Shown here in pieces: positions 6,895 to 28,796 of a stretch of DNA of 30,066 nucleotides. A model generated the notes under the pieces. The model was not told the origin of the DNA, searched no databases, and saw only the letters and a program-made list of their open reading frames with translations. Source of the DNA: a bacterium (GTDB lineage: Bacteria; UBP15; UBA6099; JAJRTR01); the NCBI GenBank assembly GCA_024278215.1, contig JAJRTR010000170.1, forward strand, positions 1 through 30,066. Direction: 5' to 3'. Within the stretch, counting starts at the first letter, position 1; each line of letters opens with the position of its first letter. The position numbers and the translations under genes were made by a program.

Positions 6895-7094
6895 AAGGAA
6901 TAACTTGATTGTGCGTTTTTGAAAAACGAGATACTTCACTTAGTATGGCAGAAAACAGGGTGACGGAAGGGTATCATCCTGACGCGGAGCCGAAAAAACC
7001 TTCTTTCGCACAATAAACTTGTAGAGCGAAAATACGGAATAATAGTAATCCCATTGGAATGAATGGTTATTGCTTCCGGAGCATAAGATAAGTA
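6895..7094. promoter_or_regulatory. Leader of the ABC transporter with palindromic sites
   Basis: The gap holds an odd-centred palindrome, CGTTTTTGAAAAACG (6914-6928), a short inverted repeat ATACT/AGTAT a little downstream, and an AGGGT/ATCCT mini-hairpin within the stretch around 6960-7000. The palindrome could be a regulator's operator. No cobalamin-riboswitch B12 box and no clear Fur box is recognisable. GGAG lies ~15 bases before the ATPase ATG. Confidence 0.3.
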
Positions 7095-7892: not shown

Positions 7893-8896
7893 TGGAAAAC
7901 AGAAAAATACGTACACAAAACTTTGTTTTCATTGCAATTGCGCTGGTCGTGCTTGCAATTGCTCCGTTTATAGGCAGCCAGTCGATAAGCTTCGCGGACA
8001 TCGCGGGAATATTCGGCGGAGGAGCGATAAGCACCGGACAGAGGATATTCTGGGATGTGCGGATGCCGCGCGTGCTGCTGGGATTCATCACCGGGGCGAC
8101 GCTTTCAGTCTGCGGCATGACGTTTCAGGCAATGTTCAGAAACCCGCTTGCAACTCCGTTTACGCTCGGCGTATCAGGGGGCGCGGCCCTGGGTGCGGTG
8201 ATCGCAATAAAACTGGGAATCGCAACGACAGTAATGGGGATAGCCCTGCCGGGCGCGCAGGTGTTCGCCTTTATCGGCGCGCTTGGTTCAATAGTCATAG
8301 TTTACGGTATTGCGCGTGCAAAAAAGGGTTTTACCATGGCTACTATGCTGCTGACCGGCATCGCGATGAGCTTCTTTTTTTCCGCATCCATTATGTTTAT
8401 CCAGTACCTCGCGGATTTCGCTCATTCATTTTCAATCGTGCGCTGGATGATGGGTGGGATTGCCGTAGTCGGCTACAGGCAGGTGCTTCAGCTTGCCGCA
8501 TTCGCAATTGTCGGAGTAGCTGTAATATTTTCATCACGCAGCGAACTCAACCTCATCCTCACCGGCGACGAGATTGCAACCGGCAGGGGGCTCGATGTCG
8601 AGAGGATGAGAAAGAAATTGTTTTTCGCGGTTTCTATCGCGGCAGGCGCAACAGTCGCGGTCTGCGGCCCCATCGGTTTTGTCGGGCTGATAATTCCGCA
8701 CATAATGCGCCTGATAGTCGGTGCCGACCACTTCGACCTCGCACCCGCCTGCATACTTGGCGGAGGCGCGTTTCTTGTCGTTTGCGATATTGTTGCCCGC
8801 ACGATTATACTGCCGGCGGAAATCCCCATCGGCATAATCACCTCGATGATCGGCGGCCCTTTCTTTATATGGCTGCTCTTCAGGCACCCAAATTAA
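7889..8896 (+). CDS. FecCD/BtuC-family ABC transporter permease
   Basis: Polytopic inner-membrane permease of the iron-siderophore/cobalamin importer family, partner of the ATPase encoded just upstream. The product is ~335 residues, the usual family length, almost all in hydrophobic segments. Family hallmarks are visible: RMPRVLLGFITGATLSVCGMTFQAMFRNPLATPFTLGVSGGAALGA early on (split here only by helices), and the late GPIGFVGLIIPHIMRL coupling-helix region. ATG 7889 overlaps the ATPase stop as ATGA; ATG 7892 is an equal alternative, while the longer in-frame start at 7865 would overlap needlessly. The stop codon lies in the left arm of a palindromic repeat. Confidence 0.92.
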   Translation: MMENRKIRTQNFVFIAIALVVLAIAPFIGSQSISFADIAGIFGGGAISTGQRIFWDVRMPRVLLGFITGATLSVCGMTFQAMFRNPLATPFTLGVSGGAALGAVIAIKLGIATTVMGIALPGAQVFAFIGALGSIVIVYGIARAKKGFTMATMLLTGIAMSFFFSASIMFIQYLADFAHSFSIVRWMMGGIAVVGYRQVLQLAAFAIVGVAVIFSSRSELNLILTGDEIATGRGLDVERMRKKLFFAVSIAAGATVAVCGPIGFVGLIIPHIMRLIVGADHFDLAPACILGGGAFLVVCDIVARTIILPAEIPIGIITSMIGGPFFIWLLFRHPN

Positions 8897-9111: not shown

Positions 9112-10245
9112 ATGGTAAATGAAACGCCAGACAGCGAAGCCGCTACCGGCAAAGAACCGGGAAATAATGCGCCGCCCGCCGATGGCCCCAGGCCGGATCA
9201 GGGTTCCGGCACATCCCCGGAGGCCGAGTTGGCAATGTTGCGCGAGCGGGTGCGGGCGCTCGAGAGTGAGCTTGCAAAGACGGTGGACATCTTCGAGGGG
9301 ATTGTCGAGACGACGGACGACGGGATAATGGTCGAGAACGAGCAGGGACGGGTGTCGCTTGTCAACAGCGGTCTGGTGCGTATGCTCGGCTACGAGGACA
9401 AGAGTGATGTGATAGACAGACCGTGGACTCACTTTTTTTCACTCGAAAGCGAGAAAAAGGTCGCCGGCAGGCCCGGGGTTTACGAGTCGTTGTTGCTGAC
9501 AAGAGACGGCAGAAAAATTCCCATTCTCATCACGAGCACCAGCTTTTCCGTGCAGGGCAGGTATATGGGCGTGCTTTCCGTAATCAAGGACACGACGTTC
9601 CAGAAACAGACAGAAGAACGGCTGCAGGCGCTTTCGCGAAAAGTAATCTCGCTGCAGGAGGAAGAGCGTGCGCGCCTGGCGCGTGAACTGCACGATGAGA
9701 TCGGCCAGCAGATGGCGGCCGTTCAACTAATTATTTCCGGCATAAAGCAGCAGAGCGAACCGCGTCGGGAACACATCCTGATGCTTGCGGACAAGATCAA
9801 AAACATACCGGCTGAACTGAGGCGTATCTGCAAGGGGCTGCGTCCCGCCGCGCTCGATTCGCTCGGGTTGATATCCGCTGTTAATGAAATGACAAATGAA
9901 TTCGTGTCTGTCTACGGAATCAATATTGATGTGAAAATCGAAGAGTTCGACGACAAAGACCTGAAACCGGAAATATCGATAAATGTGTACAGGATTATTC
10001 AGGAAGCGATCTCGAACGCGGTCAGGCATTCAGGCGCGACGGTGATTACTATAGCTATGAAACGAGCCGGCAATAAGGTATTATTAATTATAGCGGATGA
10101 CGGCGGCGGATTCGATCCTTCGCAGAACCGGTCGGGGCTGGGGCTCGACAGTATGCGCGAAAGGGCGGCGCTGTGCGGTGGGACTGCCGATGTTGAATCC
10201 GAACCCGGCAAAGGCACGGAAATAAATGTGATCATACCATTATAA
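9112..10245 (+). CDS. PAS-domain sensor histidine kinase, NarL/HisKA_3 type
   Basis: Cytoplasmic sensor kinase that would phosphorylate the response regulator encoded 14 bases downstream. From ATG 9112 it has 377 residues: a disordered Pro/Gly/Glu-rich leader, a short coiled coil (LRERVRALESELAKTVD), a PAS fold (~55-165), a HisKA_3 helix with phospho-acceptor H194 in RELHDEIGQQM, and a HATPase_c domain with N302 (EAISNAVRHSG), DDGGGFD and GLGLDSMRERA. No membrane segment is seen, so the signal is probably intracellular (redox, ligand or protein contact through PAS). Start choice is uncertain: upstream in-frame ATGs (9073, 9085) and a TTG (9067) exist and none has a strong ribosome site. It opens the co-directional block that runs to 22618. 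Confidence 0.92.
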   Translation: MVNETPDSEAATGKEPGNNAPPADGPRPDQGSGTSPEAELAMLRERVRALESELAKTVDIFEGIVETTDDGIMVENEQGRVSLVNSGLVRMLGYEDKSDVIDRPWTHFFSLESEKKVAGRPGVYESLLLTRDGRKIPILITSTSFSVQGRYMGVLSVIKDTTFQKQTEERLQALSRKVISLQEEERARLARELHDEIGQQMAAVQLIISGIKQQSEPRREHILMLADKIKNIPAELRRICKGLRPAALDSLGLISAVNEMTNEFVSVYGINIDVKIEEFDDKDLKPEISINVYRIIQEAISNAVRHSGATVITIAMKRAGNKVLLIIADDGGGFDPSQNRSGLGLDSMRERAALCGGTADVESEPGKGTEINVIIPL

Positions 10246-10259
10246 AACGGGGGCAGTAA

Positions 10260-10892
10260 TTGATTAAGGTTTTCATCGCAGACGATCATGCTCTGTTCAG
10301 GGTGGGGCTGAGGTTCATGCTCGAGCAGACGGATGATATAGAGATAGTCGGTGAAGCGGGCAGCGGGCGCGACACCATTTCCTCGTGTCACGATCTCAGG
10401 CCGCATCTTGTGCTCCTGGACATCGACATGCCCGATATCGACGGCATCGAAGTCACACAGCGTCTGCTCGACCAGGACCCGGGTATCAAGATACTTATCC
10501 TCACGATGTACGAAAACGAGGAGTATGCCGGCCGCGCTCTGAAAGCCGGCGCGCACGGCTACGCCGTCAAAGGGATCGACCCCGACGATCTGCCCGAAGC
10601 GATCCGCAGGGTGGTAAGCGGCAGGACATACATCACGAAATCCGTCGCCGAGAACATCGCGTTTCGCACACACCACGCAGGCCGAGAGAATCCCATCTCG
10701 ATACTTTCCGACCGTGAATTGCAGGTGGTGACAAAAATAGCGGGCGGCAAGACCAACCGCGAGGCGGCGGAAGACCTTTGTCTCAGCCCCAGGACTGTCG
10801 AGACTTATAAGCGTCGTGCGATGGAAAAGCTCGGTCTGAAAAACATTCAGGCTCTCGTTCGTTTCGCTATGGAACAGGGCCTTCTCAAATGA
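10260..10892 (+). CDS. NarL/LuxR-family response regulator, TTG start
   Basis: DNA-binding response regulator, cognate to the kinase encoded just upstream by position. The 210-residue product has a receiver domain with acidic pocket DD (8-9), phospho-acceptor D54 in VLLDIDMP and the conserved Lys in AVKG. A LuxR-type helix-turn-helix follows (~140-205: LSDRELQVVTKIAGGKTN, then LSPRTVETYKRRAMEKL). The start is TTG at 10260 behind a GGGGG run; no ATG is available before the receiver's first strand (IKVFIADD). Twelve bases separate it from the radical SAM gene, so it may control the pathway genes it is co-transcribed with (inference). Confidence 0.93.
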   Translation: MIKVFIADDHALFRVGLRFMLEQTDDIEIVGEAGSGRDTISSCHDLRPHLVLLDIDMPDIDGIEVTQRLLDQDPGIKILILTMYENEEYAGRALKAGAHGYAVKGIDPDDLPEAIRRVVSGRTYITKSVAENIAFRTHHAGRENPISILSDRELQVVTKIAGGKTNREAAEDLCLSPRTVETYKRRAMEKLGLKNIQALVRFAMEQGLLK

Positions 10893-10904
10893 GGACACAC
10901 ATAT

Positions 10905-11876
10905 ATGCGGGAAAGAGACACCATAAACCATTTGCCTGAAGAGTTCGGTTTCCGGTCCGAAGAATCCGAAACATTTCCTGAAATGGTGGTTTGCGGAATT
11001 TGTTTTTTCTGCAATGCGAAATGTATCCACTGCCCTAACGCAAAAACCGATTTCACTGCAAGTCTCAAAGGCAAAGACCGGCTTATGAGTTGGGATGTGT
11101 TTAAACGCATCGCCGACGAATGCGCCCGGTATCCTCACAATCTTGTCAGGATGTCTTCCGCGGGCGAAGTGCTGCTGCACCCCGAGGCGGTGGACATGAT
11201 CGAGTATCTGTTGTCGGTGAAGAAGGACAAAAATGTGGCGCTCACGACAAACGGGTCGCGCCTGAACGCGGAAACATCGGAGCGGCTTCTCGAGGCCGGC
11301 ATACGAAGCATAGAGGTGAGCGTGGACGCCGCCACTGCCGAAGTCTATGAAAAAATTCGTGTCGGGCTTTCATTCGACAGGATGCTGAAAAATGTTCGGG
11401 AACTTGTGCGGCTTCGCAATGCAGGCGGCTATCGGACAAGGATTATGGTGAGTGTGATCGAACAGGACACAAACAGAGACAGCCTCGAAGATATTCAGGC
11501 GTTCTGGAACGATACCGTGGATGTTGTCCTCACAAGGAAGCTGCTTGGTTTCATGGGCCTGATCGAAAGAGATAAGAGTGCTCAGAAAACATACATGTCC
11601 GCGAAAACCCCGTGCCCGTTCCTGTGGGAGCGGATACTGATTGACGCGCAGGGCAACGTCAGGGGATGCGTTAACGACCTGTACAATACGTTACGTATCG
11701 GCAATGTCAATGAAAAGAGCATCTCGGAATTGTGGCATTGCGACCAACTTGAATTGTGGCGAAAACTGCATCTTGAAGGCCGCAGGAAAGATGTCCCCTA
11801 TTGTAAGGACTGCACCGATCTGGAATACCGGTCATGGAACTATAATTACTTTCATGCGCTGGAAAAACAGTTGTAA
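10905..11876 (+). CDS. Radical SAM protein with SPASM-like C-terminus
   Basis: Iron-sulfur enzyme that would cleave S-adenosylmethionine to a 5'-deoxyadenosyl radical. The product has 323 residues. The cluster motif CX3CX2C is C36, C40, C43 (CNAKCIHC), preceded by extra cysteines C30 and C33. A central TIM-barrel-like section follows, with AGEVLLHPE and LTTNGSRL. A C-terminal cysteine set (CPFLW, GCVNDLYNTLRIGNVNE, SISELWH, YCKDC) resembles SPASM/twitch domains that carry auxiliary clusters in enzymes such as AnSME or sugar dehydrogenases like BtrN. ATG 10905 has GAGGA ~10 bases upstream. No short precursor-peptide gene is seen beside it, which argues against a RiPP role. The substrate is unknown. 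Confidence 0.9.
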   Translation: MRERDTINHLPEEFGFRSEESETFPEMVVCGICFFCNAKCIHCPNAKTDFTASLKGKDRLMSWDVFKRIADECARYPHNLVRMSSAGEVLLHPEAVDMIEYLLSVKKDKNVALTTNGSRLNAETSERLLEAGIRSIEVSVDAATAEVYEKIRVGLSFDRMLKNVRELVRLRNAGGYRTRIMVSVIEQDTNRDSLEDIQAFWNDTVDVVLTRKLLGFMGLIERDKSAQKTYMSAKTPCPFLWERILIDAQGNVRGCVNDLYNTLRIGNVNEKSISELWHCDQLELWRKLHLEGRRKDVPYCKDCTDLEYRSWNYNYFHALEKQL

Positions 11877-11900
11877 ATATCACACGCACCTACGGATTAT

Positions 11901-12629
11901 ATGGCGACGGAGAAAAGAACTGTAGTTCTGCTGCAACCCGGCTACTTGCCGTGGGCCGGGTTCTTCGAGCAGGTGCACAGGGCCGACCTGTTCGTTGTTT
12001 TCGATGACGCGCAGTACACAAAACTCGACTGGCGAAACAGGAACAGGATAAAAGCGCCGAACGGAAAAGACGCTTATCTGACTGTTCCGATAATGCGATG
12101 CCCTGTGGATACGAAGATACGGGATGTGAGAATATCGTGGGACAGAAACTGGGCGGCGAAACACCTCAACATGATAAAAGCATATTACGGCAAAGCACCT
12201 TTCTTCGGAGACTACTTCCCGGCACTTGAAGAACATCTGAACAGAAAACACACGCTGCTCATCGACCTGCTGCTCGAACAGCTCGACCTCCTGAATGGAA
12301 TGCTGGGGATACGAACGGAAATATTGTTGAGCAGCGAATTGAAAACCGATGTGTATGGTAAGGGCCGACTGCTCGAGGCCTGCCGGGAACTGGGTGCCAC
12401 CCACTGCTATAACGGCATGGCCGGAGAAGCTCTGTATGACCCTGCCAAGTTTGCGAAGTATGGGATAAAGCTGATTTTTCAGCGTTATAATTGCAAAGAA
12501 TATCCCCAGCAATGGCCCGGCGGGTTCATCTCCAACCTTTCGATAATCGACGTCCTTTTCAACTGCGGCCCATCTTCTCCGGAATACGTTGTCTGTTGCG
12601 GCGAGTATATGGACTCGTTGTTTATCTGA
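11901..12629 (+). CDS. WbqC-family protein
   Basis: The 242-residue product begins with the family hallmark: LQPGYLPWAGFFEQVHRADL, followed by FVVFDDAQYTKLDWRNRNRIK. WbqC-like proteins are found in O-antigen and other polysaccharide or glycolipid clusters. Their biochemical reaction is not firmly established, so no specific role is assigned here. Recognition rests on the N-terminal motif and the WRNRN-IK block; later portions (NLSIIDVLFNCGP) also fit the family C-terminus. It sits 24 bases after the radical SAM gene and supports reading this block as a glycan-type pathway. A 100-base gap follows, AT-rich, where a weak internal promoter (TTCAGA, 16 bases, GATAAT) is conceivable but unproven. 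Confidence 0.88.
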   Translation: MATEKRTVVLLQPGYLPWAGFFEQVHRADLFVVFDDAQYTKLDWRNRNRIKAPNGKDAYLTVPIMRCPVDTKIRDVRISWDRNWAAKHLNMIKAYYGKAPFFGDYFPALEEHLNRKHTLLIDLLLEQLDLLNGMLGIRTEILLSSELKTDVYGKGRLLEACRELGATHCYNGMAGEALYDPAKFAKYGIKLIFQRYNCKEYPQQWPGGFISNLSIIDVLFNCGPSSPEYVVCCGEYMDSLFI

Positions 12630-12729
12630 CGATATGTTTTCTCAGTTCGTGTGTTTATGTGTTCAGATTCTACTTTATCCGCCGATAATAATAAAAGTGG
12701 CTCATAAGTTGTATTCCGGAGATAAGTAT

Positions 12730-14904
12730 ATGTCCAACATATTGATTACAGGCGGCGCGGGTTATCTCGGGACATGGATCACCCGGCTTCTACTCGAAGA
12801 TAACCATTATGTCCGTGTCATCGACCGCTGTTTTTTCGGTGAGAAGCCCGTTGAGGGCTTCAAACAGAATAATAACTATGAACTGATAAAGGACGATATC
12901 CGCTGGCCGTCCGAAGCGGTTTTTAAGGATATTGACATCCTGATAGACCTCGCCGGCCTGTCGAACGATCCGTCGTGCTCGCTGAATTCCGAACTCACGC
13001 AATCGATAAACCGAGACGGGATCATCAATTTCAACAGGATGGCGAAGGAGGCGGGCATCAGGCAGGTTATAAACGCTTCGTCATGCAGCGTATACGGACA
13101 GGGCGGCGGTTATTTCGTCGAAGAGTCAGCTTCATGCAATCCTCTTACATTATATGCGCAGTCGAAACTCATGGTCGAGGAGTTTTTGTTCAATAATCTG
13201 TGCGACAGGAACTATTGCGTCACGGCCCTTCGCTTCGGCACACTATACGGTCTGTCACGGCGAATGCGGTTCGACCTGATCGTCAACATTATGACCGCGC
13301 GCGTCATGATGAGCAACAAGATATTTGTGAACGGAGGCGGCCTGCAGTGGCGACCGCTTGTGCATGTTCAGGACGCCGCGAGGGCTTTTCTGCACGTCCT
13401 GGACGCGCCCGTTGAGAAAGTAAACGGCCAGGTTTTCAACGTGGGCGCCAACGATCAGAATTTCAGGGTTATCACTGTCGCCAACATCATTCATGATATT
13501 TTTCCCGGCTCGGAAATGATTATTGTTCCCGAAGACGCCGACGAGCGCTCGTACAACGTAAGCTTCGATAAGATTAAAAACCACCTGGGATTCAAGCCGA
13601 AACGCAATGTTCCGGAAACCGTTGTCGATATACGCGACGCGCTGAAAGATGGAATTGTCGAATACCGTGGCGACGGACAGGACGATCTTACCGCCACCAC
13701 ACTGAGATACAGGAAACTCACCGGGAACAATCCACTCCTCGAGCAGGAAGGCAAGTTTCGCATACACAGGTCGGTCGAATTCTACAAGCACAATATCGAC
13801 GAAAGAGACATCCTCCGCCAGGAGAAAACACTCCGTTCGATATTCCTGACAACCGGCAGTATAACGAAGAAATTCGAGAAAATGCTCGCCGACTATCTCG
13901 GCGTGTCGAGGGTTATCGGCACAACAAGCTGCACCGATTCCCTGTTTCTCGTTCTCAAGGCGCTCGGCGTGGGCCCCGGAGACGAAATTATAACAACGCC
14001 GATGACTTTCGTCGCGACGGCGAACGCTGTCGAGCATACCGGCGCGAGACCGGTGTTCGTGGATGTTGAACCCGAAACCGGCAACATCGACGCGTCGCGC
14101 GTCGCGGCGTCGGTCAACAAGAAGACGAAAGCGATTATCCCAGTTCATCTCTATGGGCAAATGTGCGACATGAAAACACTTTCCGGCATCGCGAAGGAAC
14201 ACGGTCTGTCTCTGATCGAGGACGCCGCCCATTGCATCGAGGGCGTTCGCGACGGAATACAGCCGGGCCGGCTTTCGGACGCGGCTTGCTTCAGTTTCTA
14301 TGCCACGAAAAATATCACCTGCGGCGAAGGCGGCGCCATCGCGACAAACGACAACGACCTCGCGGACATGCTTGTGAAAATGCGCCTTCACGGACTGAGC
14401 GCGGATGCGGCATCAAGGTATACGGGCGATTTCAAGCCCTTTGACATGGTTCTGCTCGGCTACAAAGCGAACATGTCGAATCTTGACGCCGCGCTTCTCA
14501 TCGGACAGCTCGAGAGAATAGACGAACTATGGGAACGCCGCGAACATGTCTCAAGAGCTTATGAAAAAGAAATCGCCGCTATCGCGAACATCGGACTGAC
14601 AACGATACGCGGCAACTCGAAATCCGCTCGCCATCTCTTCACCATCAGGGTGGACAGCAATATTCGAGGCGATATGATTACCGCGTTGAAAAGCAGGGGC
14701 ATCGGTGTCGCCGTGAATTATCCGCCGGTTCACCTGACCACTTATTACAGCGAAAAATATGGATATAAACCCGGCGATTTCCCAGTGGCAGAGCGCATCG
14801 GGGCCGAGACGATAAGCATACCGATGTATCCGCGCCTGACGGATTCGGAAATTGAGTACATTACAACCGCACTGCGCGACATATCTGAAGAATTGTCGGA
14901 ATGA
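12730..14904 (+). CDS. Fusion: NAD-dependent epimerase/dehydratase plus DegT/DnrJ/EryC1 aminotransferase
   Basis: A single 724-residue frame joins two enzymes normally encoded separately. Residues 1-~330 are an extended SDR: GGAGYLG (8-14), catalytic Y142/K146 in YAQSK, and a C-terminal GYxP-like end (LGFKPKRN). Residues ~345-724 are a DegT-type PLP sugar aminotransferase: TTSCTDSLFLVLKALGVGPG, then TTPMTFVATANAV, HLYGQMCDM, ED-AAH, PLP lysine K527 in SFYATKNITCGEGG, and a conserved terminal AERIGAETISIPMYPRL. Together they could oxidise or epimerise a nucleotide sugar and then aminate the resulting keto group. ATG 12730 has GGAG upstream; the longer frame to 12589 is rejected. The stop overlaps the next gene as ATGA. 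No frameshift or stop interrupts the join. Confidence 0.93.
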   Translation: MSNILITGGAGYLGTWITRLLLEDNHYVRVIDRCFFGEKPVEGFKQNNNYELIKDDIRWPSEAVFKDIDILIDLAGLSNDPSCSLNSELTQSINRDGIINFNRMAKEAGIRQVINASSCSVYGQGGGYFVEESASCNPLTLYAQSKLMVEEFLFNNLCDRNYCVTALRFGTLYGLSRRMRFDLIVNIMTARVMMSNKIFVNGGGLQWRPLVHVQDAARAFLHVLDAPVEKVNGQVFNVGANDQNFRVITVANIIHDIFPGSEMIIVPEDADERSYNVSFDKIKNHLGFKPKRNVPETVVDIRDALKDGIVEYRGDGQDDLTATTLRYRKLTGNNPLLEQEGKFRIHRSVEFYKHNIDERDILRQEKTLRSIFLTTGSITKKFEKMLADYLGVSRVIGTTSCTDSLFLVLKALGVGPGDEIITTPMTFVATANAVEHTGARPVFVDVEPETGNIDASRVAASVNKKTKAIIPVHLYGQMCDMKTLSGIAKEHGLSLIEDAAHCIEGVRDGIQPGRLSDAACFSFYATKNITCGEGGAIATNDNDLADMLVKMRLHGLSADAASRYTGDFKPFDMVLLGYKANMSNLDAALLIGQLERIDELWERREHVSRAYEKEIAAIANIGLTTIRGNSKSARHLFTIRVDSNIRGDMITALKSRGIGVAVNYPPVHLTTYYSEKYGYKPGDFPVAERIGAETISIPMYPRLTDSEIEYITTALRDISEELSE

Positions 14905-16328
14905 TGAAAAGAACTCTGCTGATATCGACGGACAGGTCTTCCTTCAGGGGAGCGCTCTGGGGTGCTTATGATCTCGAACTGCCCCTGAACACAGCTTATG
15001 TTTCCTCATATCTCGAGTTGCATGGAATCGGCAGCGATATTATTGATCTACAGTTGGAAAAGGATGTCAGCGGCGCAATAGCACAGATCGACTGCTCGCA
15101 AACCGCCGTCGTAGGGCTCAACGCGAACCTTGGCGGCACATACAACATGTATGATGTCGCCGCAGCGATAAAGAAAAAATATCCAGACATTCCCGTCGCA
15201 TGTTTTGGCCTGTCAACAGTACTTAAAGAGAAGATTCTCGAAGAATCGGAGAATGTCGACTATGTCGTGTTCGGCGAAGAAGAGGAAACATTCCGCGAAC
15301 TCGCCGCCGCGCTGATTGACGGCCGCGACACGAGCGGGATAAAAGGAACATCGAGCCGCCGCGACAACGGTGAGATAATCTGCAATCTCCCGCGCGGTTT
15401 TATCAGGGACCTTGATGCCATGCCGTTTCCCGGTAGACACCTTTTCGATGTCGGTCGCTATTTCCCGTCGCCCGGCAAATATATGCTGATGCCGCAATTC
15501 ACGATGATCTCCAGCAGGGGCTGCAACGGCGCGTGCCTCTTCTGCCCGAGGCTGTATGGCCGCGGCATACGGTACAGATCGCCGGCGAATATCGCCGAAG
15601 AGATAGACATGCTGGAAAAGGATTTCGGGGCACGGGAAATATATTTCCTCGACGACACATTCACTGCCGACCGCGACCGCACGATGGAAATAGCCGACAT
15701 GCTGTCCGGGCGAAAGAAACGCATTGCCTTCCGCATTGCGTCCAGGGTCGATAAGGTCGACAGGAAAATGCTGAAGGCGCTGAAGGCCGCCGGACTTTAC
15801 AGCATCGGCTTCGGCATCGAATCCGGTGTGGATGAAATCCTTAAGTTCAATCGCAAGGGTATCACGACGGAACAGGTGAAAGCCGCAGTTTCGTGGAGCA
15901 GGGAGGCCGGCCTGGAAACACGCGGCTTCTTCATGCTGAATCTGCCCGGCGACACACAAAAGACGACGCGCGAAACCATACGGTTTATCCGCGAACTTAA
16001 ACTCGATCTTGTGAATGTCCAGATAGCATATCCGTGGCCCGGTTCGGAACTGAGAAAGTATGTTCTCAAAAACTGCGACGTTTCCCATGATGTGATTAAC
16101 GACTGGACCGCCTGCGAAGGCGACAGGGTCACTTTCACACAAAACGACATGACACCCGAATTTATATTTGAGTCGTATAACAGTATAATAAAGGAATTCT
16201 ATCTGAATCCGCGTTTTATTCTGCGGTGGTTGTCCCGGATCAGAAACTATCACGATTTTAAGTATGCGTTTCTCCAGTTTCTGAGCCTTGCGGGACGCAT
16301 GGTCGCAGGCGTGAAAAACATAAAATAA
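14901..16328 (+). CDS. B12-binding-type radical SAM protein (first)
   Basis: The 475-residue product combines an N-terminal Rossmann-like cobalamin-binding-type domain (~1-140; LNTAYVSSYLELHGIGSDII, VVGLNANLGG, VVFGEEEETFRELA) with a radical SAM barrel. The cluster motif is C208, C212, C215 (CNGACLFC), followed by YFLDDTFTADRDR, GIESGVDEIL and FFMLNLPGDT. This is the BchE/methyltransferase-type architecture. Members methylate unactivated carbons or do other radical chemistry using methylcobalamin, but some bind no B12; the classical DxHxxG motif is not visible here. The start overlaps the fusion gene's stop (ATGA), so translation is coupled. The C-terminal ~100 residues (FILRWLSRIRNYHDFKYAFLQF) are typical of this family. 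Confidence 0.9.
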   Translation: MMKRTLLISTDRSSFRGALWGAYDLELPLNTAYVSSYLELHGIGSDIIDLQLEKDVSGAIAQIDCSQTAVVGLNANLGGTYNMYDVAAAIKKKYPDIPVACFGLSTVLKEKILEESENVDYVVFGEEEETFRELAAALIDGRDTSGIKGTSSRRDNGEIICNLPRGFIRDLDAMPFPGRHLFDVGRYFPSPGKYMLMPQFTMISSRGCNGACLFCPRLYGRGIRYRSPANIAEEIDMLEKDFGAREIYFLDDTFTADRDRTMEIADMLSGRKKRIAFRIASRVDKVDRKMLKALKAAGLYSIGFGIESGVDEILKFNRKGITTEQVKAAVSWSREAGLETRGFFMLNLPGDTQKTTRETIRFIRELKLDLVNVQIAYPWPGSELRKYVLKNCDVSHDVINDWTACEGDRVTFTQNDMTPEFIFESYNSIIKEFYLNPRFILRWLSRIRNYHDFKYAFLQFLSLAGRMVAGVKNIK

Positions 16329-16354
16329 ATCTACAATAAACGGAGCGCTGCCGC

Positions 16355-17056
16355 ATGTCGGAAGAAATATGGTGGAAGAAAACAGCCTGGACTTATCCGG
16401 CTGCCCGGAAAACAAAATTCGTGCAGGAGGTCCACCGCGCGTTTTTCCGCAAGATCGACTCCCTCCCGCTGCCGCGGGGCGCGCGATGCCTCGACGCGGG
16501 TTGCGGCGACGGCAATTGCGCCTTCAAGCTGGCAGAAAGGGGGCTCGATGTCGTCGGACTCGATTTCGGCGACGCGATCCTGGAACAGGCAAAAAAGAGA
16601 CAGCGCGGCATGGGCGTCGACAACGTGCATTTCGAATGGGGAGACCTGAACTCGCCTCTCAAGTATGGCGATAACGAATTCGACATTGTGACCTCCATGC
16701 ACGCCCTGATGAAAGTCAAAAAAGCAAAAGACGCGCTCCGGGAATTCCACAGAATCCTGAAACCGGGCGGATACGCCGTCATAACGATAACGGCAAGCGA
16801 CGAAGAATTCAGTTCATGGTTTCGCAGATATATCAGGAACAACGGAGTGATAAAAGGGTTCTGGGACATCCGGTGGCTTGTTGTGTGGAACCTGCCTTAT
16901 GTCATCATGACAAAAAAGTCGGAGCGACGCGACGAATGGCGCTGGCCGCCCGAAACGCTCGCGCGCAATATGGAAGCAGCCGGCTTCAAAACATTATCCG
17001 TCGAGTCCGTTCCCTATACTCATGTCGGTTGTTCGCTTGGCGTTTTTCAGAAGTAA
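16355..17056 (+). CDS. Class I SAM-dependent methyltransferase (first)
   Basis: A 233-residue soluble methyltransferase. Motif I is CLDAGCGDGNC (45-55) for SAM binding, followed by an acidic end of strand 2 (VVGLDFGDAILEQAKKR), and a motif IV/post region (FDIVTSMHALMKVKKAKDAL, then HRILKPGGYAVIT). GGAG lies nine bases before the ATG. The sequence most resembles the Methyltransf_11/25 group, which covers small-molecule, sugar and lipid methyltransferases, so the acceptor cannot be named. Within this cluster an O- or N-methylation of the sugar product is the simplest reading (inference). Confidence 0.88.
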   Translation: MSEEIWWKKTAWTYPAARKTKFVQEVHRAFFRKIDSLPLPRGARCLDAGCGDGNCAFKLAERGLDVVGLDFGDAILEQAKKRQRGMGVDNVHFEWGDLNSPLKYGDNEFDIVTSMHALMKVKKAKDALREFHRILKPGGYAVITITASDEEFSSWFRRYIRNNGVIKGFWDIRWLVVWNLPYVIMTKKSERRDEWRWPPETLARNMEAAGFKTLSVESVPYTHVGCSLGVFQK

Positions 17057-17127
17057 TCTTTACAAACCAAATAGATAGCCGCTTCGCTTTTACGGCAGGC
17101 AGCGAGTGGGTATCGAGGATTATATCT

Positions 17128-17850
17128 ATGCACGGTTCACTGGACGACTTTGCTAAAAGCTATGACAGTGATTTTCCGTATTCTCTCGACAACAGCTTGA
17201 TGCTGAACTGGTATCCCGAAAGAATACTCGATTCCGCTTGCGGAGACACGGCGCTCGAGCTGGGGCTCGGGCACGGCTTCTCGACAACAATATTCGAAAA
17301 CCGCTTTGAAAGACTTGTCGTCGTTGAAGGTTCTCCGGCGATCATCCGCAGATTCAAAAACAAGCATAAAAGATCAAAGGCGGAAATTGTTCAAAGTTAT
17401 TTCGAAGACTTCGAGACACGCGAACGGTTCGACCATGTGATAATGGGATTCATACTTGAACATGTCGACGATCCTTCGGCGATCCTTAAGAAGTATCGCG
17501 GCATGTTGAAACCGGGCGGTTCACTGTTCATCGCAGTGCCTAACGCCGAATCGCTGAACAGGCGAATCGGATTCGCGGCAGGTCTGATAGATGATATATC
17601 GGCGCTTGGTGATGCAGACTTGCAATTGGGGCACAGGCGATACTTCACTGTCGACTCAATAAGCGCAACGACTGTGGAAGCCGGTTACGAAATAATAAAG
17701 ACCGAAGGCATATTTCTGAAACCTTTTTCGACGCAACAGCTCATGTCCCTGGAACTTACCGGGAAAATACTCGAGGCATTGCTGAAGGTCGGTACTTGTT
17801 ATCCCGAACTCTGCGCGGGAATACTTATCGAAGCGGTGCAGTCATCATGA
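17128..17850 (+). CDS. Class I SAM-dependent methyltransferase (second)
   Basis: A 240-residue methyltransferase with motif I ALELGLGHGFS, acidic strand-2 end VVVEGSP, FDHVIMGFILEHVDDPSAIL, and the post-motif RGMLKPGGSLFIAVPNAES. ATG 17128 is preceded by GAGGAT at the right distance. The open frame continues to 16816, but that stretch reads as out-of-frame text of the previous gene and is rejected. The 71-base gap before it is among the largest in the block. The gene ends in an ATGA overlap with the next SDR. It is not closely similar by eye to the first methyltransferase, so a second, different methyl acceptor is likely. Confidence 0.87.
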   Translation: MHGSLDDFAKSYDSDFPYSLDNSLMLNWYPERILDSACGDTALELGLGHGFSTTIFENRFERLVVVEGSPAIIRRFKNKHKRSKAEIVQSYFEDFETRERFDHVIMGFILEHVDDPSAILKKYRGMLKPGGSLFIAVPNAESLNRRIGFAAGLIDDISALGDADLQLGHRRYFTVDSISATTVEAGYEIIKTEGIFLKPFSTQQLMSLELTGKILEALLKVGTCYPELCAGILIEAVQSS

Positions 17851-18695
17851 AGGTATTGATCACAGGTGGAACTTCCGTACTCGGCAGGAGTCTCAAGCGC
17901 GTGTTGGGGCGCGACTGCGAGGTCGTGACCGCCGGGCGCGACGATTCATCCGATTTCAGAATCGATCTTCTGAACCGTGACTCGTTCCGTGGCATCGACA
18001 TCGATTATGACGCGGTTGTGCATTGCGCCGCTGCTTTTTATGGCGACTCGGCGGACGGCATGATACAAAACGAATTGCTGAATTCTCTCGGTTCTCTTTA
18101 TGTTGCGGAAAACGCTGCTACCGCCGGTTGCAGACACTTCATTTATATATCGACAATATTCTCGCTCCGGCACAATGATAACGCCTATTTCGGTTCCTAC
18201 GGCATCTCGAAACAGCACGGTCAGGATAACGTATCTCAATTATGCTCGGCCCGCGACATGTTGTTCACTTCCATGGCCGCCGGACCCCTGTATGATATCG
18301 CAGGTAATGAGCGAAAACATCAACCGCTTTTTTACCACATTATTGATCGCGCTGAAAACGGAAAAGATATTCATTTCTTCGGGAACCTTGATCCCATCAG
18401 AAACTATTTACTGATCGACGACTTCGCGGAAATGATCGGGATCGTTGTCCGACAGCGCATCGGCGGCGCTTTTAACTGCGTTCACCCGGATTCATATAAG
18501 CTGAGCGAAATAGCGGAACTCGCATACGATGTATATGGCAACGGAGGGGAAGCCCTATTTCTGAAAGACAGGCCGGACCTGCCGGCAATGTATATCCCTT
18601 CCGCGACAGATACTTTCGAGACGCTGAAATACACGCCGGGAACAAGTCTGCGCGAAGGAATCGAAATGATTCGTGAGTTCAGGGAGAACAGATAA
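17847..18695 (+). CDS. NAD(P)-dependent epimerase/dehydratase/reductase (SDR)
   Basis: Extended SDR of 282 residues, shorter than the other two in the window and closer in size to dTDP-4-dehydrorhamnose-reductase-like or NAD(P)-dependent sugar reductases. It shows GGTSVLG (7-13), an adenine-side acidic stretch (FRIDLL), VHCAAAF, the catalytic pair Y118/K122 in YGISK, and a family-type C-terminal section. ATG 17847 overlaps the preceding stop (ATGA), indicating translational coupling; the in-frame extension to 17796 is inside the methyltransferase gene. It probably reduces or epimerises a keto-sugar intermediate, but the substrate is unknown. Confidence 0.88.
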   Translation: MKVLITGGTSVLGRSLKRVLGRDCEVVTAGRDDSSDFRIDLLNRDSFRGIDIDYDAVVHCAAAFYGDSADGMIQNELLNSLGSLYVAENAATAGCRHFIYISTIFSLRHNDNAYFGSYGISKQHGQDNVSQLCSARDMLFTSMAAGPLYDIAGNERKHQPLFYHIIDRAENGKDIHFFGNLDPIRNYLLIDDFAEMIGIVVRQRIGGAFNCVHPDSYKLSEIAELAYDVYGNGGEALFLKDRPDLPAMYIPSATDTFETLKYTPGTSLREGIEMIREFRENR

Positions 18696-18697
18696 TC

Positions 18698-19681
18698 ATG
18701 TACAGGCTACTCGTCACAGGTGTGGGCGCGCTGATCGGTTGCGGCATTGTGAGATCGCTTAACGATTCCCGGTTTGAAACTACCGTCTACGGAATGGACA
18801 TACAGCATGATGCGGTCGGCAGAAAGTGGTGCGACCATTTTATTGAAGCGCTGCCGCTGTCCTCTCCGGATTACATAGGTTTTCTCAGGAACATAATAAC
18901 GGAATATTCCATCGACCTTGTGATCCCCGGCTTCGAAGCCGACACGATGAGGATTCACAGGAGCCGGGCTGAACTCGGGGAAACATGCGCCGGGCTCGTA
19001 TTGAACAACAGTGAATTGCTCGATATTGCAAACGACAAGTGGCTTACACAAAAAACACTCGCAGAGAACGGTTTCCCTGCGATACCGGGAAGCACCGGCG
19101 ACAGCTTCGATTCAGTTGCGAACAAACTCGGCATTCCGTTTATCGTGAAGCCACGCCGTTCTCATGCGTCTATCGGAGTTTGCGAAGTGTCACAGGAATA
19201 CGAATATATTTACCGGCAAAAAAAACTCGGCGATAACTTTCTCGCACAGAAAATCATCGGGACGGAAGATGAAGAGTATACCGCCGGAGTTTTCGGCTAC
19301 GGCGACGGGACAGGGTCGAAAGCCATCGTGTTTCAACGGAAACTCGGCGGTGGCGGCGCGACAGTCAGCGCCCGTTCTGTCGTCATCCCCTCTCTTAATA
19401 AGTTTATAGTCGAACTCGTCGCGCTTTTCCGGCCTGAGGGCCCGACAAATTTTCAGTTCCGAAAACATGATGGTGTTTTCTATCTTCTTGAAGTTAACGC
19501 GCGAATCTCTTCTACCACATCAATAAGAACCGCCTTCGGTTTCAATGAAGCGGAAATGTGCATCAGGTATTATTTGCTGAACGAAAAGCCCGATCCAGTA
19601 ACCATCATGACAGGAACGGCATTGCGCTATCTGGAAGACATAATTGTTTATGATCGCAATCATATCCGACATTCACGGTAA
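18698..19681 (+). CDS. ATP-grasp domain protein (carbamoyl-phosphate-synthase-like ligase)
   Basis: The 327-residue product looks like an ATP-grasp ligase that would activate a carboxylate through an acyl-phosphate and join it to an amine or thiol. The N-terminal pre-ATP-grasp Rossmann part (VTGVGALIGCGIVRSL, VIPGFEADT) is followed by the ATP-grasp fold: K151 in FIVKPRRSHASIGV, a glycine-rich stretch GGGGAT (217-222) and the metal ligands E265 and N267 in LLEVNAR. This resembles CarB/PylC-like proteins. GGGAGAA sits nine bases before the ATG, two bases after the previous stop. In this cluster it could attach an amino acid or carbamoyl-like group to the amino sugar made by the fusion enzyme (inference). 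Confidence 0.88.
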   Translation: MYRLLVTGVGALIGCGIVRSLNDSRFETTVYGMDIQHDAVGRKWCDHFIEALPLSSPDYIGFLRNIITEYSIDLVIPGFEADTMRIHRSRAELGETCAGLVLNNSELLDIANDKWLTQKTLAENGFPAIPGSTGDSFDSVANKLGIPFIVKPRRSHASIGVCEVSQEYEYIYRQKKLGDNFLAQKIIGTEDEEYTAGVFGYGDGTGSKAIVFQRKLGGGGATVSARSVVIPSLNKFIVELVALFRPEGPTNFQFRKHDGVFYLLEVNARISSTTSIRTAFGFNEAEMCIRYYLLNEKPDPVTIMTGTALRYLEDIIVYDRNHIRHSR

Positions 19682-20345
19682 TTATCCGGCAGTCGAGGCA
19701 GTTCTCGCCGACATAGAAAAAAGAGAGGTCGACAGAATTTATTGCCTTGGCGACATCGCCGGTTATTACTGCATGATAAATGAATGTATCGAGGCGCTGC
19801 GAGCGCGCGACGTCGTCCTCCTTATGGGCAATCACGATTATTATCTTATTAACAACAAGTCGTGCCCGCGGTCTCCAACTGCTACTAAATGCCTTGCTTT
19901 TCAGCGAAACATTATAACGTGCGACAACCTCGCATGGCTGCGCGGCAGGCCTTCGCAACTGACTTTTGACAATGTATTCATGGTTCACGGCGGCAGGCAC
20001 GATCCGCTCGAAGAATATATTTATGAAATCGGCGCAGATTATTTCAGCGGACGAGACGAGAAGTTTTTCTTCGCCGGCCATGTTCATGTTCAGGCAAAAC
20101 ACGTATTTGAAAACACGATATTCTGCAATCCCGGTTCCGTCGGACAACCGCGGGACGGAGTCCCGGCTGCGGCCTACGCTGTAATGGACGGCGCGGAGAT
20201 CGACCTCCGAAGAGTCGATTATGACACAGACGCCGTTGCCTTCCGGATGCGAAAAGCCGGATTCGATGAATATACATACAGCAACCTGTACGCAGGTACG
20301 CGCATCGGCGGGAAGCGTGACACGATTTCTATGACTGGACGGTAA
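19650..20345 (+). CDS. Metallophosphoesterase, YfcE/MJ0936-like
   Basis: Dimetal phosphoesterase of 231 residues. All the family blocks are present in order: SDIHGN (D7, H9), GDIAGYY (D35), GNHD (N61, H62), VHGG, GHVHVQ and NPGSVGQPRD. These proteins hydrolyse phosphomono- or diesters; the biological substrate varies. The gene overlaps the end of the ATP-grasp gene by 32 bases. ATG 19650 is preferred because the first strand (IAIISDIHG) starts there. A TTG six bases upstream has a better-spaced GGAAGA and is possible. In this pathway it might remove a phosphate or a nucleotide carrier (inference). Confidence 0.9.
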   Translation: MIAIISDIHGNYPAVEAVLADIEKREVDRIYCLGDIAGYYCMINECIEALRARDVVLLMGNHDYYLINNKSCPRSPTATKCLAFQRNIITCDNLAWLRGRPSQLTFDNVFMVHGGRHDPLEEYIYEIGADYFSGRDEKFFFAGHVHVQAKHVFENTIFCNPGSVGQPRDGVPAAAYAVMDGAEIDLRRVDYDTDAVAFRMRKAGFDEYTYSNLYAGTRIGGKRDTISMTGR

Positions 20346-20354
20346 GCGGCACTC

Positions 20355-21164
20355 ATGAATGAAAAGTTTCCTAAAAACCTCTCTTTCTCGATGATTACTT
20401 TCGCTTATAATGAGGAAAACTGGCTCGAAGACCGGATTCATTTGTGGATGAGCCAGTTCGGGAAGTTCGTTGACGACTTCGAGATCGTTCTCGTGAACGA
20501 CGGCAGCGAAGACCGCACCGGTGAGATCGCGGACAGACTCGCTCGTGAGTATCCGCAACTGAAAGTCATTCACCATGAGAAAAATATGGGGACAGGCTAT
20601 GCCGCCCGAACCGGCAGAAATAATGTCTCGAAGTATATTGTATTCTGGAACGATGTCGATTCGCATTTTAATCTCGACGATCTCGGCAAGGTTATTCCGC
20701 TGCTACAGGACCCCGAAATAGATATTGTCGTCGCTTTCAAACACGACTTGATCAAAACCAAATCTATGTTTTCATGGATGAAATCCAGGATAAATTATTA
20801 TCTTATAAAAATGCTTTTCTTCTCGCTTTTTTTCGACTATTCGCCGATACTCGACTACCAGTTCGTACAGTTTCTGCCGCGCCGGTTTTTCGTCGACGGC
20901 ATCGACTTGAAAAGCTACAGTTCCTTCATACCGGCGGAATGTTTGATAAAGGCGCGCCGGATCGGACTCGAAATCCGCCAGATACAGTTGAAGTATCATA
21001 GCAAGCCGGCAGGTTACGGAACCGCTTTGAATGCGAAAACTATTATGACAAGTATAAAAAACATTTTCGAATTCTGGCTCAGATGGACCATCGGCGGCGA
21101 AAAAAACAGAACGATCGAACATTGGCACAGCGCGTTCGGAGGTGAGTTCCCCTGGCGAAAGTAG
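20355..21164 (+). CDS. Family 2 glycosyltransferase, DPM1/polyprenyl-phosphate-transferase-like
   Basis: The 269-residue GT-A-fold glycosyltransferase has the GT2 opening (FAYNEENWLEDRI), donor-binding VLVNDGSEDRTGEI with D49, the NMGTGYAARTG block seen in dolichyl/undecaprenyl-phosphate sugar transferases, and a DVD metal motif (D100, D102). It likely transfers a sugar from a nucleotide donor to a lipid phosphate or glycan acceptor at the cytoplasmic face of the membrane. Hydrophobic stretches around 145-165 could be peripheral, with no clear multi-pass tail. It starts nine bases after the phosphoesterase and its last codons contain the ribosome-binding site and proposed start of the next gene. 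Confidence 0.9.
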   Translation: MNEKFPKNLSFSMITFAYNEENWLEDRIHLWMSQFGKFVDDFEIVLVNDGSEDRTGEIADRLAREYPQLKVIHHEKNMGTGYAARTGRNNVSKYIVFWNDVDSHFNLDDLGKVIPLLQDPEIDIVVAFKHDLIKTKSMFSWMKSRINYYLIKMLFFSLFFDYSPILDYQFVQFLPRRFFVDGIDLKSYSSFIPAECLIKARRIGLEIRQIQLKYHSKPAGYGTALNAKTIMTSIKNIFEFWLRWTIGGEKNRTIEHWHSAFGGEFPWRK

Positions 21165-22618
21165 TTTTCCTGATACAGCGCGAAGAGCTCGACCCGGAAC
21201 GAACCGTTCTGCGCAAGGTCTTGTTTCCTGTCGAGACAGCCTTCGCCGCGGCATTACTTGTCGAGAACGGCCATGAAATAGTTCCGTTCGATCTGAACTT
21301 AGCAGGCAATTCTCCTGACTGGACCCGTGATTTCGAACAACTTATCATCGAATTTAAGCCCGACGTTGTCGTTTCCGCGCCTCAGGCTCTGACTTTCTTT
21401 ATCAAAGAATGTACCGCGGACACCGCTGTCGCTTTCAAGCTGTCGAAGAAGCTCGACGACGGTATCGTTACCGTTTACTGCGGACCGTTCGCAACATCAT
21501 ATCCGCAACGTGCTCAGGATACATGCTCGCCGGACTTCATAATACGCGGCGAATATGATTCAGCGTTGCTGAGTATGGTCAATAATATCCCGGCCTCAGT
21601 AGTTTTGTCCGGTTCGGACTCACGCACAGATGCGGCGGCACGCGACGGCGGTATGTCGTTCATCGAGGATTTCGACAGCCTGCCTTTTCCGGCCTACAAA
21701 CAGTTCGGGTATAAAAACTATTTTGCATATCGCGGCAAAGGCAATCTCAGATACGCCGAACACAGCGAAAGATATACACACTACACCACTTCGCGCGGCT
21801 GCACATGCAAATGCTGCTTCTGCAATGTCGGCTTTCTGCGGGGCGGCAGAAAGTTCAGAAAAAGAGCCGTCCCAACGGTCCTGGACGACCTCGAACGCAT
21901 TAACACCGAACTCGGAATCGAGGAGATTCACTTCCTTGACGAAAACATGACTCTGAACCGCAGAAGAACCGCGGCTATATGCGACGGCATCATTGAAAGA
22001 GGCCTGGATTTCAAATGGCTTGCCGCGGGGGGGATGAGCGTCTATTCATTGAACAAAGAGATTCTTGTAAAGATGAAGGAGTCCGGCTGCTACAGGCTCA
22101 ACCTCGCTTTCGAATCCGGCGACCAGGCTGTCCTCAGAAAAATCATTCGAAAACCCCTGGACCTGAAAAAGGGGCTCGCCCTCCTGGAAACCGCCCGCGA
22201 ACTCGACTTTGAAATAATCGGCTATTTCGTGATCGGGCTACCCGGCGAAGCCCGCGCTCAAATACAGAAAACCCTCGATCTCGCCTCGCATCATTGCTTC
22301 GACTATGTAACGATCTCCATAGCAACGCCGCTGGCAGGTTCCGAACTGGAAAAGATATGCAAGCGCGACGGCCTGATAGAGGAAAAAGCGCGGCTTTCGG
22401 AAATAAGCCGCCGCTCCACAGGGGTTTTCGGCACAGATGAGTTCACTCCGTTCGAACTCGAAGAGATCAGGTGGAAAATGTGGGATAATATAAATTTCTC
22501 CGACCGGCAACGCAGAGAACGGCTCTGCCGCATCCTCGGCCTGAGCGACGGCGAACTTGCGGAATTGAGGGATAGAACCGCTTCCGACTTTCACCAACGT
22601 CACCGCGAAAACGATTAG
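21152..22618 (+). CDS. B12-binding-type radical SAM protein (second), probable CTG start
   Basis: The frame from the upstream TGA (21143-21145) has no ATG or GTG near the N-terminus. The first TTG (21221) would cut off a native-looking first beta strand (AKVVFLIQREELDPERTVLR). CTG at 21152 lies six bases after GGAGGTGA (21138-21145), an almost ideal ribosome site, so CTG initiation giving 488 residues is proposed. The domains are an N-terminal cobalamin-binding-type fold (AALLVENGHEIVPFDLNL, VVSAPQALTFF, IIRGEYDSALL) and a radical SAM barrel with C217, C221, C224 in CTCKCCFC, FLDENMTLNRRR, AFESGDQAVL and YFVIGLPGE. It overlaps the glycosyltransferase stop by 13 bases and is the last gene of the block. 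Function: radical methylation or rearrangement of an unknown substrate. Confidence 0.87.
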   Translation: MAKVVFLIQREELDPERTVLRKVLFPVETAFAAALLVENGHEIVPFDLNLAGNSPDWTRDFEQLIIEFKPDVVVSAPQALTFFIKECTADTAVAFKLSKKLDDGIVTVYCGPFATSYPQRAQDTCSPDFIIRGEYDSALLSMVNNIPASVVLSGSDSRTDAAARDGGMSFIEDFDSLPFPAYKQFGYKNYFAYRGKGNLRYAEHSERYTHYTTSRGCTCKCCFCNVGFLRGGRKFRKRAVPTVLDDLERINTELGIEEIHFLDENMTLNRRRTAAICDGIIERGLDFKWLAAGGMSVYSLNKEILVKMKESGCYRLNLAFESGDQAVLRKIIRKPLDLKKGLALLETARELDFEIIGYFVIGLPGEARAQIQKTLDLASHHCFDYVTISIATPLAGSELEKICKRDGLIEEKARLSEISRRSTGVFGTDEFTPFELEEIRWKMWDNINFSDRQRRERLCRILGLSDGELAELRDRTASDFHQRHREND

Positions 22619-22644
22619 CCCGGATTTCTCATAAAGAAATCCGG
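22619..22644. repeat. Hairpin directly after the last cluster gene
   Basis: CCGGATTTCT (22620-22629) and AGAAATCCGG (22635-22644) form a perfect 10-bp stem with a 5-base loop, beginning one base after the TAG stop. It is well placed to end or protect the operon mRNA, but no T-run follows. Its core GATTTCT/AGAAATC differs from the 22903 hairpin (GATTGCT/AGCAATC) by a compensated base pair. Confidence 0.6.
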
Positions 22645-22800
22645 TTCGGTGTTCGGCAATCGGAGTTCGGGATCCGGGAAAAACAAAAACGTCGAACACC
22701 TCGAACCTGATTTTTCAACGTTCCGGGGCTGAGTTCCAGAACGATAACACATGCCGCATTTTCGTGCCCAGACAAATTCGGTTTGAGCACGCCACACATA
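22645..22800. other. Non-coding stretch with inverted GGTGTTCG/CGAACACC
   Basis: GGTGTTCG (22648-22655) is complementary to CGAACACC (22693-22700), and TTCGG/GTTCGG words recur between them. From ~22719 the text (GTTCCGGGGCTGA, CCAGAAC, TTTTCGTGCC, AAATTCGG) parallels the repeat tract at 8926-8998. No coding sequence is convincing. Confidence 0.4.
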
Positions 22801-27943: not shown

Positions 27944-28124
27944 GACCGGATCAGGGATATGCGAACGGCAAAGTGCGGTATAACAAAAGGACTTCAATGC
28001 GGAGAACACCGGTGCCCGGAGGAAACAGAGAGTAAAAGACATTCCCCTCCGCGCGCTTCGTTTCCCTGCGAATTCCGTGTTGATGTTTTTTTGTATTCTG
28101 CACATTTCATCCAGTCGCCTGCAA
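27944..28124 (-). other. Gap between possible pilin and usher-like genes
   Basis: 181 bases without a supported separate gene. The usher-like frame stays open through it to 28141 and includes an ATG at 28042 with GGAGGGG just upstream, so part of it may encode an N-terminal extension. No terminator is seen, consistent with read-through from the upstream gene. Confidence 0.35.
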
Positions 28125-28703: not shown

Positions 28704-28740
28704 TGTTCTCTCCTCGGGCTGTAACACGGAGTTTGAGCCA

Positions 28741-28777
28741 GTTGCAGTCGACCGCAGCCGAAACAGAATTTTGCAAC
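28741..28777 (+). repeat. Hairpin repeat family H, copy C
   Basis: GTTGCA (28741-28746) pairs with TGCAAC (28772-28777). Further GAGCC/GGTTC pairing outside continues past one mismatch and includes one G-T wobble. The 25-base loop contains GACCGCAGC (28750-28758). It lies in the 93-base space between the chaperone and possible-pilin genes, inside an apparent operon, where it could modulate relative expression. Confidence 0.7.
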
Positions 28778-28796
28778 CGGTTCGTTTGTATAAAGC

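Follow-up and report, generated by a model that had tools for sequence, protein, structure and literature searches.

What is made by thirteen closely spaced bacterial genes that combine three radical S-adenosylmethionine (SAM) enzymes, amino-sugar functions and a single glycosyltransferase? The genes occupy positions 9112–22618 of a 30,066-base contig, hereafter the window, one of the 207 contigs of a 4.55-Mb draft genome (G000). A preliminary description had treated all thirteen as one pathway set. Comparison with other genomes divides them into a core of about eight functions and about six local additions. The core comprises a SPASM radical SAM protein, a WbqC family protein, a C4 aminotransferase, a short-chain dehydrogenase/reductase (SDR), two B12-type radical SAM proteins (R1 and R2), one methyltransferase (MT1) and a family 2 glycosyltransferase (GT2). 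We hold with moderate confidence that this core is a transferred cassette that would attach a radical-tailored 4-amino sugar to polyprenyl phosphate, destined for a surface glycan or glycoconjugate, in the manner of the Arn or CsbB/YfhO systems.

As to gene content and co-occurrence, we observe that the core recurs in rearranged form in four other genomes: G001, which belongs to a different family of the same order, and G041, G042 and G093, from one class of another phylum (the phylum of G000 is represented by seven genomes in the searched set). Order and orientation vary, and content is largely kept. In the 4.4-Mb genome G001, the genome-wide best matches of the aminotransferase half, WbqC, SPASM and R2 proteins, each searched singly, fall within about 12 kb of one contig; clustering of four independent best matches argues for an association beyond chance. 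The same stretch also holds R1, MT1, GT2 and a dehydratase-like SDR. A two-sequence SPASM profile run against genome contigs of 84,980 species returned four loci: the G001 contig, a Deltaproteobacteria metagenome-assembled genome (locus L070, genome G041), a Desulfobacterales metagenome-assembled genome (L071, G042) and a more distant Omnitrophota locus (L072). All core genes are present in L071, and L070 has the core minus MT1 and the aminotransferase, its contig ending just past the SPASM gene. A profile search of 389 genomes of the relatives' class added G093, a closed genome of 5,197,905 bases in which the genes for the aminotransferase, a membrane protein, the SDR, WbqC, SPASM, MT1, GT2 and R2 lie in a row; R1 is encoded on the opposite strand, some 7.6 kb upstream of the aminotransferase gene. 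Among 395 sampled genomes of the relatives' phylum, an R2 survey found only G042 to be cassette-like (831 bits; next match, 312 bits), and R2 paralogues on contig C151 of G000 and in G035 and G477 sit without a cassette in the stretches read.

The neighbourhood comparison proposed in the preliminary description thus found the core together in four other genomes across phyla rather than scattered independently. The single-pathway claim held for the core but not for the two-component pair, the second methyltransferase (MT2), the second SDR (SDR2), the ATP-grasp protein and the phosphoesterase, which do not accompany it: none of the four relatives carries a kinase, regulator, SDR2, ATP-grasp or phosphoesterase counterpart next to its core. 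At L070, R1 is split over two frames (6490–7865), either by a frameshift mutation or by an assembly error. The Omnitrophota locus (27–12186 of L072) carries in a row an ATP-grasp protein, a SPASM protein (39%), an SDR, an aminotransferase and a PMT_2-type membrane transferase.

The core looks to have been transferred horizontally, and transfer between phyla is the simplest reading of the sequence comparison. Identities between the window and G001 are nearly equal to those between the window and G093 (SPASM, 68 and 65%; GT2, 65 and 59%; R2, 57 and 54%), whereas SecY of G001 is 73% identical to that of the window genome and 46–48% identical to those of three deltaproteobacterial genomes. We draw the transfer from this contrast: across phyla, core identity stays close to its within-order value while SecY identity falls. 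The five cassette SPASM proteins form one clade (support 100/100), within which G093 groups next to G001 (81/89), near the window, and G041 pairs with G042 (100/100). The cassette has two subtypes, window/G001/G093 and G041/G042.

The amino-sugar assignment of the preliminary description is supported by the aminotransferase, SDR, WbqC protein and GT2. Family placement and intact motifs are again observations. The aminotransferase scores 328.3 bits against PseC (cut-off, 423.5) and 276.6 bits against ArnB (cut-off, 631), both below the equivalog cut-offs, and retains its catalytic lysine; it is a predicted C4-acting enzyme of the PseC/ArnB class. In the relatives, an RmlB-like SDR with the S-[ST]-S-E-VYG motif adjoins the aminotransferase. 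In the window an SDR is fused to it, and the best solved match of this domain is the sugar-nucleotide epimerase/dehydratase 6vo6. Many further DegT and SDR genes are found in the window genome.

Radical chemistry of the C-methylation or deoxygenation type, as earlier suggested, is a reasonable expectation, and so is dehydrogenation; the nearest solved relatives include the aminoglycoside enzymes BtrN and AprD4. The SPASM protein matches PF04055 (74.9 bits) and PF13186 (42.9 bits) above the cut-offs, and among solved structures it is closest to BtrN, through its C-terminal region; DesII was set aside as its relative when the solved-structure search gave BtrN. R1 matches PF02310 at 42.7 bits (cut-off, 32.1). 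With a predicted B12-binding domain and a Cx3Cx2C motif (CNGACLFC in R1, CTCKCCFC in R2), both B12-type proteins are classed as putative class B (cobalamin-dependent) radical SAM enzymes. Their nearest relatives by sequence are AprD4, at about 18–19% identity, and MgmA (9ccb). The R2 model lies closest to TsrM, OxsB, AprD4 and MgmA, a list that spans a dehydratase, a ring-contracting enzyme and methyltransferases; because it covers several reaction types, we single out none for R2. B12-type radical SAM homologues number 38 in the 4.5-Mb window genome, 21–33 in its order relatives and 0–10 in most other genomes searched.

The WbqC protein matches PF08889 at 241.6 bits over profile positions 1–216 of 218. 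Sequence searches against solved structures gave nothing credible, even with a 20-sequence profile, and Foldseek gave no significant match. The best structural match of its model (predicted local distance difference test score, pLDDT, 71.8) is class I lysyl-tRNA synthetase (Z 11.0, root-mean-square deviation 3.0, 175 residues), followed at Z 6–7 by TyrRS, phosphopantetheine adenylyltransferase and pantothenate synthetase. We regard a HUP/class I aminoacyl-tRNA-synthetase-like fold as a lead suggested by the model. Residues Q12, Y15, P17, W18, H88, D217 and N221 are invariant in 20 WbqC sequences. No HxGH ATP-binding motif was seen; a conserved Q12-P-x-Y15-x-P17-W18 stands instead.

How would such a sugar leave the cytoplasm? 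Dolichol-phosphate mannose (DPM) synthase (over 10–242, almost the full length of GT2) and ArnC (13–201, the greater part of it) are among the best solved relatives of GT2. GT2 is the only glycosyltransferase among the thirteen genes. As the preliminary description had remarked, the block has neither flippase nor polymerase, which fits a polyprenyl-phosphate monosaccharide route better than a Wzx/Wzy system. Gram-positive bacteria have systems in which a sugar is loaded on undecaprenyl phosphate (C55-P) and moved to the outside by a cytoplasmic GT2, GtcA and a membrane transferase such as YfhO or GtlB (PMC7389260). Genes for YfhO-family membrane proteins sit immediately next to the core in G041 and G042; in G001 and G093, polytopic membrane proteins with no family match lie beside or inside it. 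YfhO is encoded elsewhere in the G001 genome and was found in neither G000 nor G093. The membrane transferase of the window genome, if there is one, would be encoded elsewhere and belong to another family.

From this gene content we infer a substrate, an order of steps, a reaction for each radical enzyme, a carrier and an acceptor. An SDR would first form a nucleotide-linked 4-keto sugar, as a 4,6-dehydratase in the relatives and through the diverged fused SDR in the window, and the ArnB/PseC-type enzyme would install nitrogen at C4. WbqC, perhaps with the ATP-grasp protein in the window and a GNAT-type protein in the relatives, may then decorate the amine or another position; a GNAT-type protein lies between MT1 and GT2 in G001 and a GNAT/FemAB-like protein in the G093 island, and the ATP-grasp protein may be the amine-decorating enzyme of the window genome. 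The SPASM enzyme (dehydrogenation or epimerization), R1 and R2 (deoxygenation or C-methylation) and MT1 would remodel the ring. GT2 would place the sugar on undecaprenyl phosphate, and a membrane GT-C enzyme (YfhO or another, beside the core in the relatives and off the window contig) would transfer it on the outer side.

The polyprenyl-phosphate amino-sugar reading draws on the joint occurrence of the core in five genomes of two phyla, the single SPASM clade and the SecY contrast; on the intact-lysine C4 aminotransferase, the RmlB-like dehydratase of the relatives and the likeness to BtrN, AprD4 and MgmA; and on GT2 with its DPM synthase and ArnC matches and the YfhO or polytopic membrane proteins that adjoin the core in relatives. 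Precedents exist in DesII, which acts on a 4-amino sugar (PMC11434129), and in C55-P-sugar systems with YfhO (PMC7389260). A bolder version, which we consider rather unlikely as a whole, would be a mobile cross-phylum pathway in which all three radical SAM enzymes act on one 4-amino sugar to give an undescribed branched or multiply deoxygenated polyprenyl-phosphate monosaccharide, with WbqC forming an amide at the sugar amine as an ATP-dependent ligase akin to aminoacyl-tRNA synthetases.

Several observations weigh against the polyprenyl-phosphate reading. The fused SDR of the window has ASSCSVYG, without the catalytic glutamate, and is 22–28% identical to the dehydratases of the relatives; because of this low identity, the missing glutamate and the 6vo6 match, its first step may differ. 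The radical SAM proteins score far below every equivalog cut-off, R2 falls below the PF02310 cut-off, and the R2 model, an N-terminal cobalamin-type domain with a radical SAM barrel, is weak (pLDDT 62.7). GT2 lacks a membrane segment and might be a chain glycosyltransferase of the ordinary kind, no GT-C enzyme or flippase is encoded on the window contig, and the window genome has no YfhO.

A tentative alternative, possible but appreciably less probable, is that the cassette makes a single residue within a conventional long-chain O-antigen or capsule, with GT2 as a chain glycosyltransferase and with the exporter and other glycosyltransferases encoded elsewhere in the genome. A smaller SPASM–WbqC–SDR–aminotransferase module does occur in polysaccharide loci of Desulfobacteria, of which one has an ABC-2 exporter pair and several carry asparagine-synthase-like genes, and the many other DegT and SDR genes of the window genome would suit such a pathway. 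Yet the thirteen genes include no exporter, polymerase or second glycosyltransferase, GT2 is DPM/ArnC-like, and it is YfhO, not Wzy, that adjoins the core in two relatives. A role of the cassette in supplying sugar for the glycosylation of flagellin is improbable. Genes for a large flagellin, NeuB and a cytidylyltransferase occur in the vicinity of the G093 core, and the window genome has 15 flagellin-domain matches, but no flagellar gene is near the core in the window, G001, G041 or G042, and the draft genome G042 bears the core with no flagellin match at all, on which ground flagellin was rejected as a universal target.

Still less probable as the product is a small molecule of aminoglycoside type, secreted from the cell. 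Aminoglycosides are the substrates of BtrN and AprD4, to which the radical SAM proteins are nearest among solved structures, but none of the thirteen genes encodes an aminocyclitol synthase, a dedicated exporter or a resistance protein, the core of the relatives stands beside YfhO-type enzymes, and the smaller module is found in polysaccharide loci. HpnJ-like tailoring of hopanoid side chains, which R1 recalls because it scores best against HpnJ, the enzyme that makes the cyclitol ether of bacteriohopanetetrol (PMC12583986), is hardly credible and was rejected, as the score of 201.8 bits is far under the cut-off of 577.6 and no hopene cyclase exceeds its cut-off in the five core-bearing genomes, although 14 control genomes likewise gave none, so that the control shows no sensitivity.

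The physical layout of the block agrees with the preliminary description, which had reported a co-directional set with gaps of at most 100 bases and start/stop overlaps. All thirteen genes, each with a stated domain in a Pfam scan, lie on the forward strand, and the refined gaps run from −32 to +100 bases; overlaps of the ATGA type occur at 14901 and 17847 (Table 1). Starts were corrected for the fusion (about 12730), MT2 (about 17128) and SDR2 (17847). R2 probably starts at a CTG at 21152, overlapping the GT2 stop; we prefer this codon because the stretch translated from it aligns with the full N-terminus of a relative. Internal terminator-like sites are no commoner than chance (17, versus 16.6 ± 4.2 in shuffled sequences). 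The final stop codon is followed at once by a hairpin of 10 pairs (z −3.2) that has no T-run and is a possible operon end.

Table 1. Genes and 3′ hairpin of the cluster in window coordinates, with the gap in bases to the next gene (negative values, overlaps).
Feature	Position	Strand	Gap to next	Remarks
PAS-HisKA_3 histidine kinase	9112..10245	+	+14	Pfam; outside core, no counterpart beside core in relatives
LuxR-type response regulator	10260..10892	+	+12	Pfam; outside core, no counterpart beside core in four relatives
SPASM radical SAM protein	10905..11876	+	+24	Core; nearest solved relative BtrN; CNAKCIHC motif intact
WbqC family protein	11901..12629	+	+100	Core; Pfam 1.1e-71; predicted HUP/class I aminoacyl-tRNA-synthetase-like fold
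GalE-like SDR + PseC/ArnB-type C4 aminotransferase fusion	12730..14904	+	−4	Core function; SDR without catalytic Glu
B12-binding radical SAM protein 1 (R1)	14901..16328	+	+26	Core; nearest models HpnJ (far below cut-off), AprD4
Class I methyltransferase 1 (MT1)	16355..17056	+	+71	Core; in 3 of 4 relatives
Class I methyltransferase 2 (MT2)	17128..17850	+	−4	Local; weakly similar counterpart in G001 only
Second SDR (SDR2)	17847..18695	+	+2	Local addition
ATP-grasp, PRK12767 carbamoyl-phosphate-synthase-like	18698..19681	+	−32	Local addition; 251 bits (cut-off 218)
Calcineurin-like YfcE-type metallophosphoesterase	19650..20345	+	+9	Local addition
GT2 glycosyltransferase, DPM synthase/ArnC-like	20355..21164	+	−13	Core; no transmembrane segment
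B12-type radical SAM protein 2 (R2)	21152..22618	+		Core; probable CTG start
10-pair hairpin	22619..22645	+		Directly 3′ of last stop codon

Upstream of the cluster, a BtuD/BtuC-like (FecCD family) ABC importer is encoded on the same strand (7095–8896), stopping 215 bases 5′ of the kinase gene; if its substrate were cobalamin, it would fit the two B12-type enzymes. No cobalamin riboswitch or other known RNA reaches the gathering score in the window. Downstream by 466 bases, on the forward strand, lies a gene for an acyl-CoA dehydrogenase-like protein of 581 amino acids (23085–24830), of which only the middle and C-terminal domains are matched. A large surface-type protein with SdrD_B and carboxypeptidase-regulatory-like domains (25043–29612, reverse strand) adjoins two smaller proteins with no Pfam match, a set that is perhaps secretion- or fimbria-like.

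Radical SAM enzymes are known to act on antibiotic aminosugars and have seldom been linked to surface glycans. A cassette of three such enzymes with a lipid-carrier-type glycosyltransferase, apparently moved between phyla, hints at unknown surface sugars in uncultured and sulfate-reducing bacteria. It also offers a defined setting for probing the WbqC family, for which we found no assigned function and whose predicted fold is like that of class I aminoacyl-tRNA synthetases and nucleotidyltransferases. The preliminary description had not recognized the gene set as a described pathway, and we likewise found no match in the full text of open papers, a search that left subscription papers and preprints outside.

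Among known systems, HpnJ is set apart by the sub-cut-off equivalog score of R1 and by the absence of a squalene-hopene cyclase above cut-off in the five core-bearing genomes, and Wzx/Wzy- or ABC-dependent clusters differ in that the thirteen genes, taken alone, include one GT2 and no transporter, polymerase or second glycosyltransferase. The module of the Desulfobacteria polysaccharide loci (L083 and L085–L088) has SPASM, WbqC, SDR and aminotransferase genes adjacent, as in the cassette, but lacks its two B12-type radical SAM proteins and MT1, and the SPASM proteins of the module branch outside the cassette clade. The recurrent set in these five loci is two SPASM genes, WbqC, SDR and aminotransferase, often with asparagine-synthase-like genes. 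Of the solved structures, AprD4 (apramycin) is nearest to the B12-type proteins and BtrN (butirosin) to the SPASM protein, and each works on an aminosugar or aminocyclitol; identity is low (about 18–19% for AprD4), and the cluster has no aminoglycoside genes.

The closest parallels are three. The TDP-desosamine pathway (DesIV, DesI, DesII) shares a 4,6-dehydratase, present in the cassette relatives, a C4 aminotransferase and a radical SAM enzyme for a 4-amino sugar, DesII acting on TDP-4-amino-4,6-dideoxyglucose (PMC11434129). In contrast, searching the cassette radical SAM proteins against solved structures gave BtrN, AprD4 and MgmA, not DesII, and the cassette product would go to a glycan, not a macrolide. 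CsbB–GtcA–YfhO glycosylation resembles the cassette in its DPM-type GT2 and, for G041 and G042, in a YfhO next to the core (PMC7389260), but uses an ordinary sugar (GlcNAc, Gal) where the cassette has a dedicated sugar-making set; no GtcA-like gene was seen, and the window genome lacks YfhO. The Arn pathway (ArnA–ArnB–ArnC–ArnD–ArnT), which puts 4-amino-4-deoxyarabinose on lipid A, shares an SDR with a predicted ArnB-class C4 aminotransferase, a DPM/ArnC-like GT2 and, in the cassette relatives, a membrane transferase next door. ArnA formyltransferase, ArnD and ArnT are missing from the thirteen genes, and the cassette has three radical SAM enzymes, WbqC and methyltransferases instead. The logic is thus known from the Arn, desosamine and CsbB/YfhO systems, whereas the combination appears to be new.

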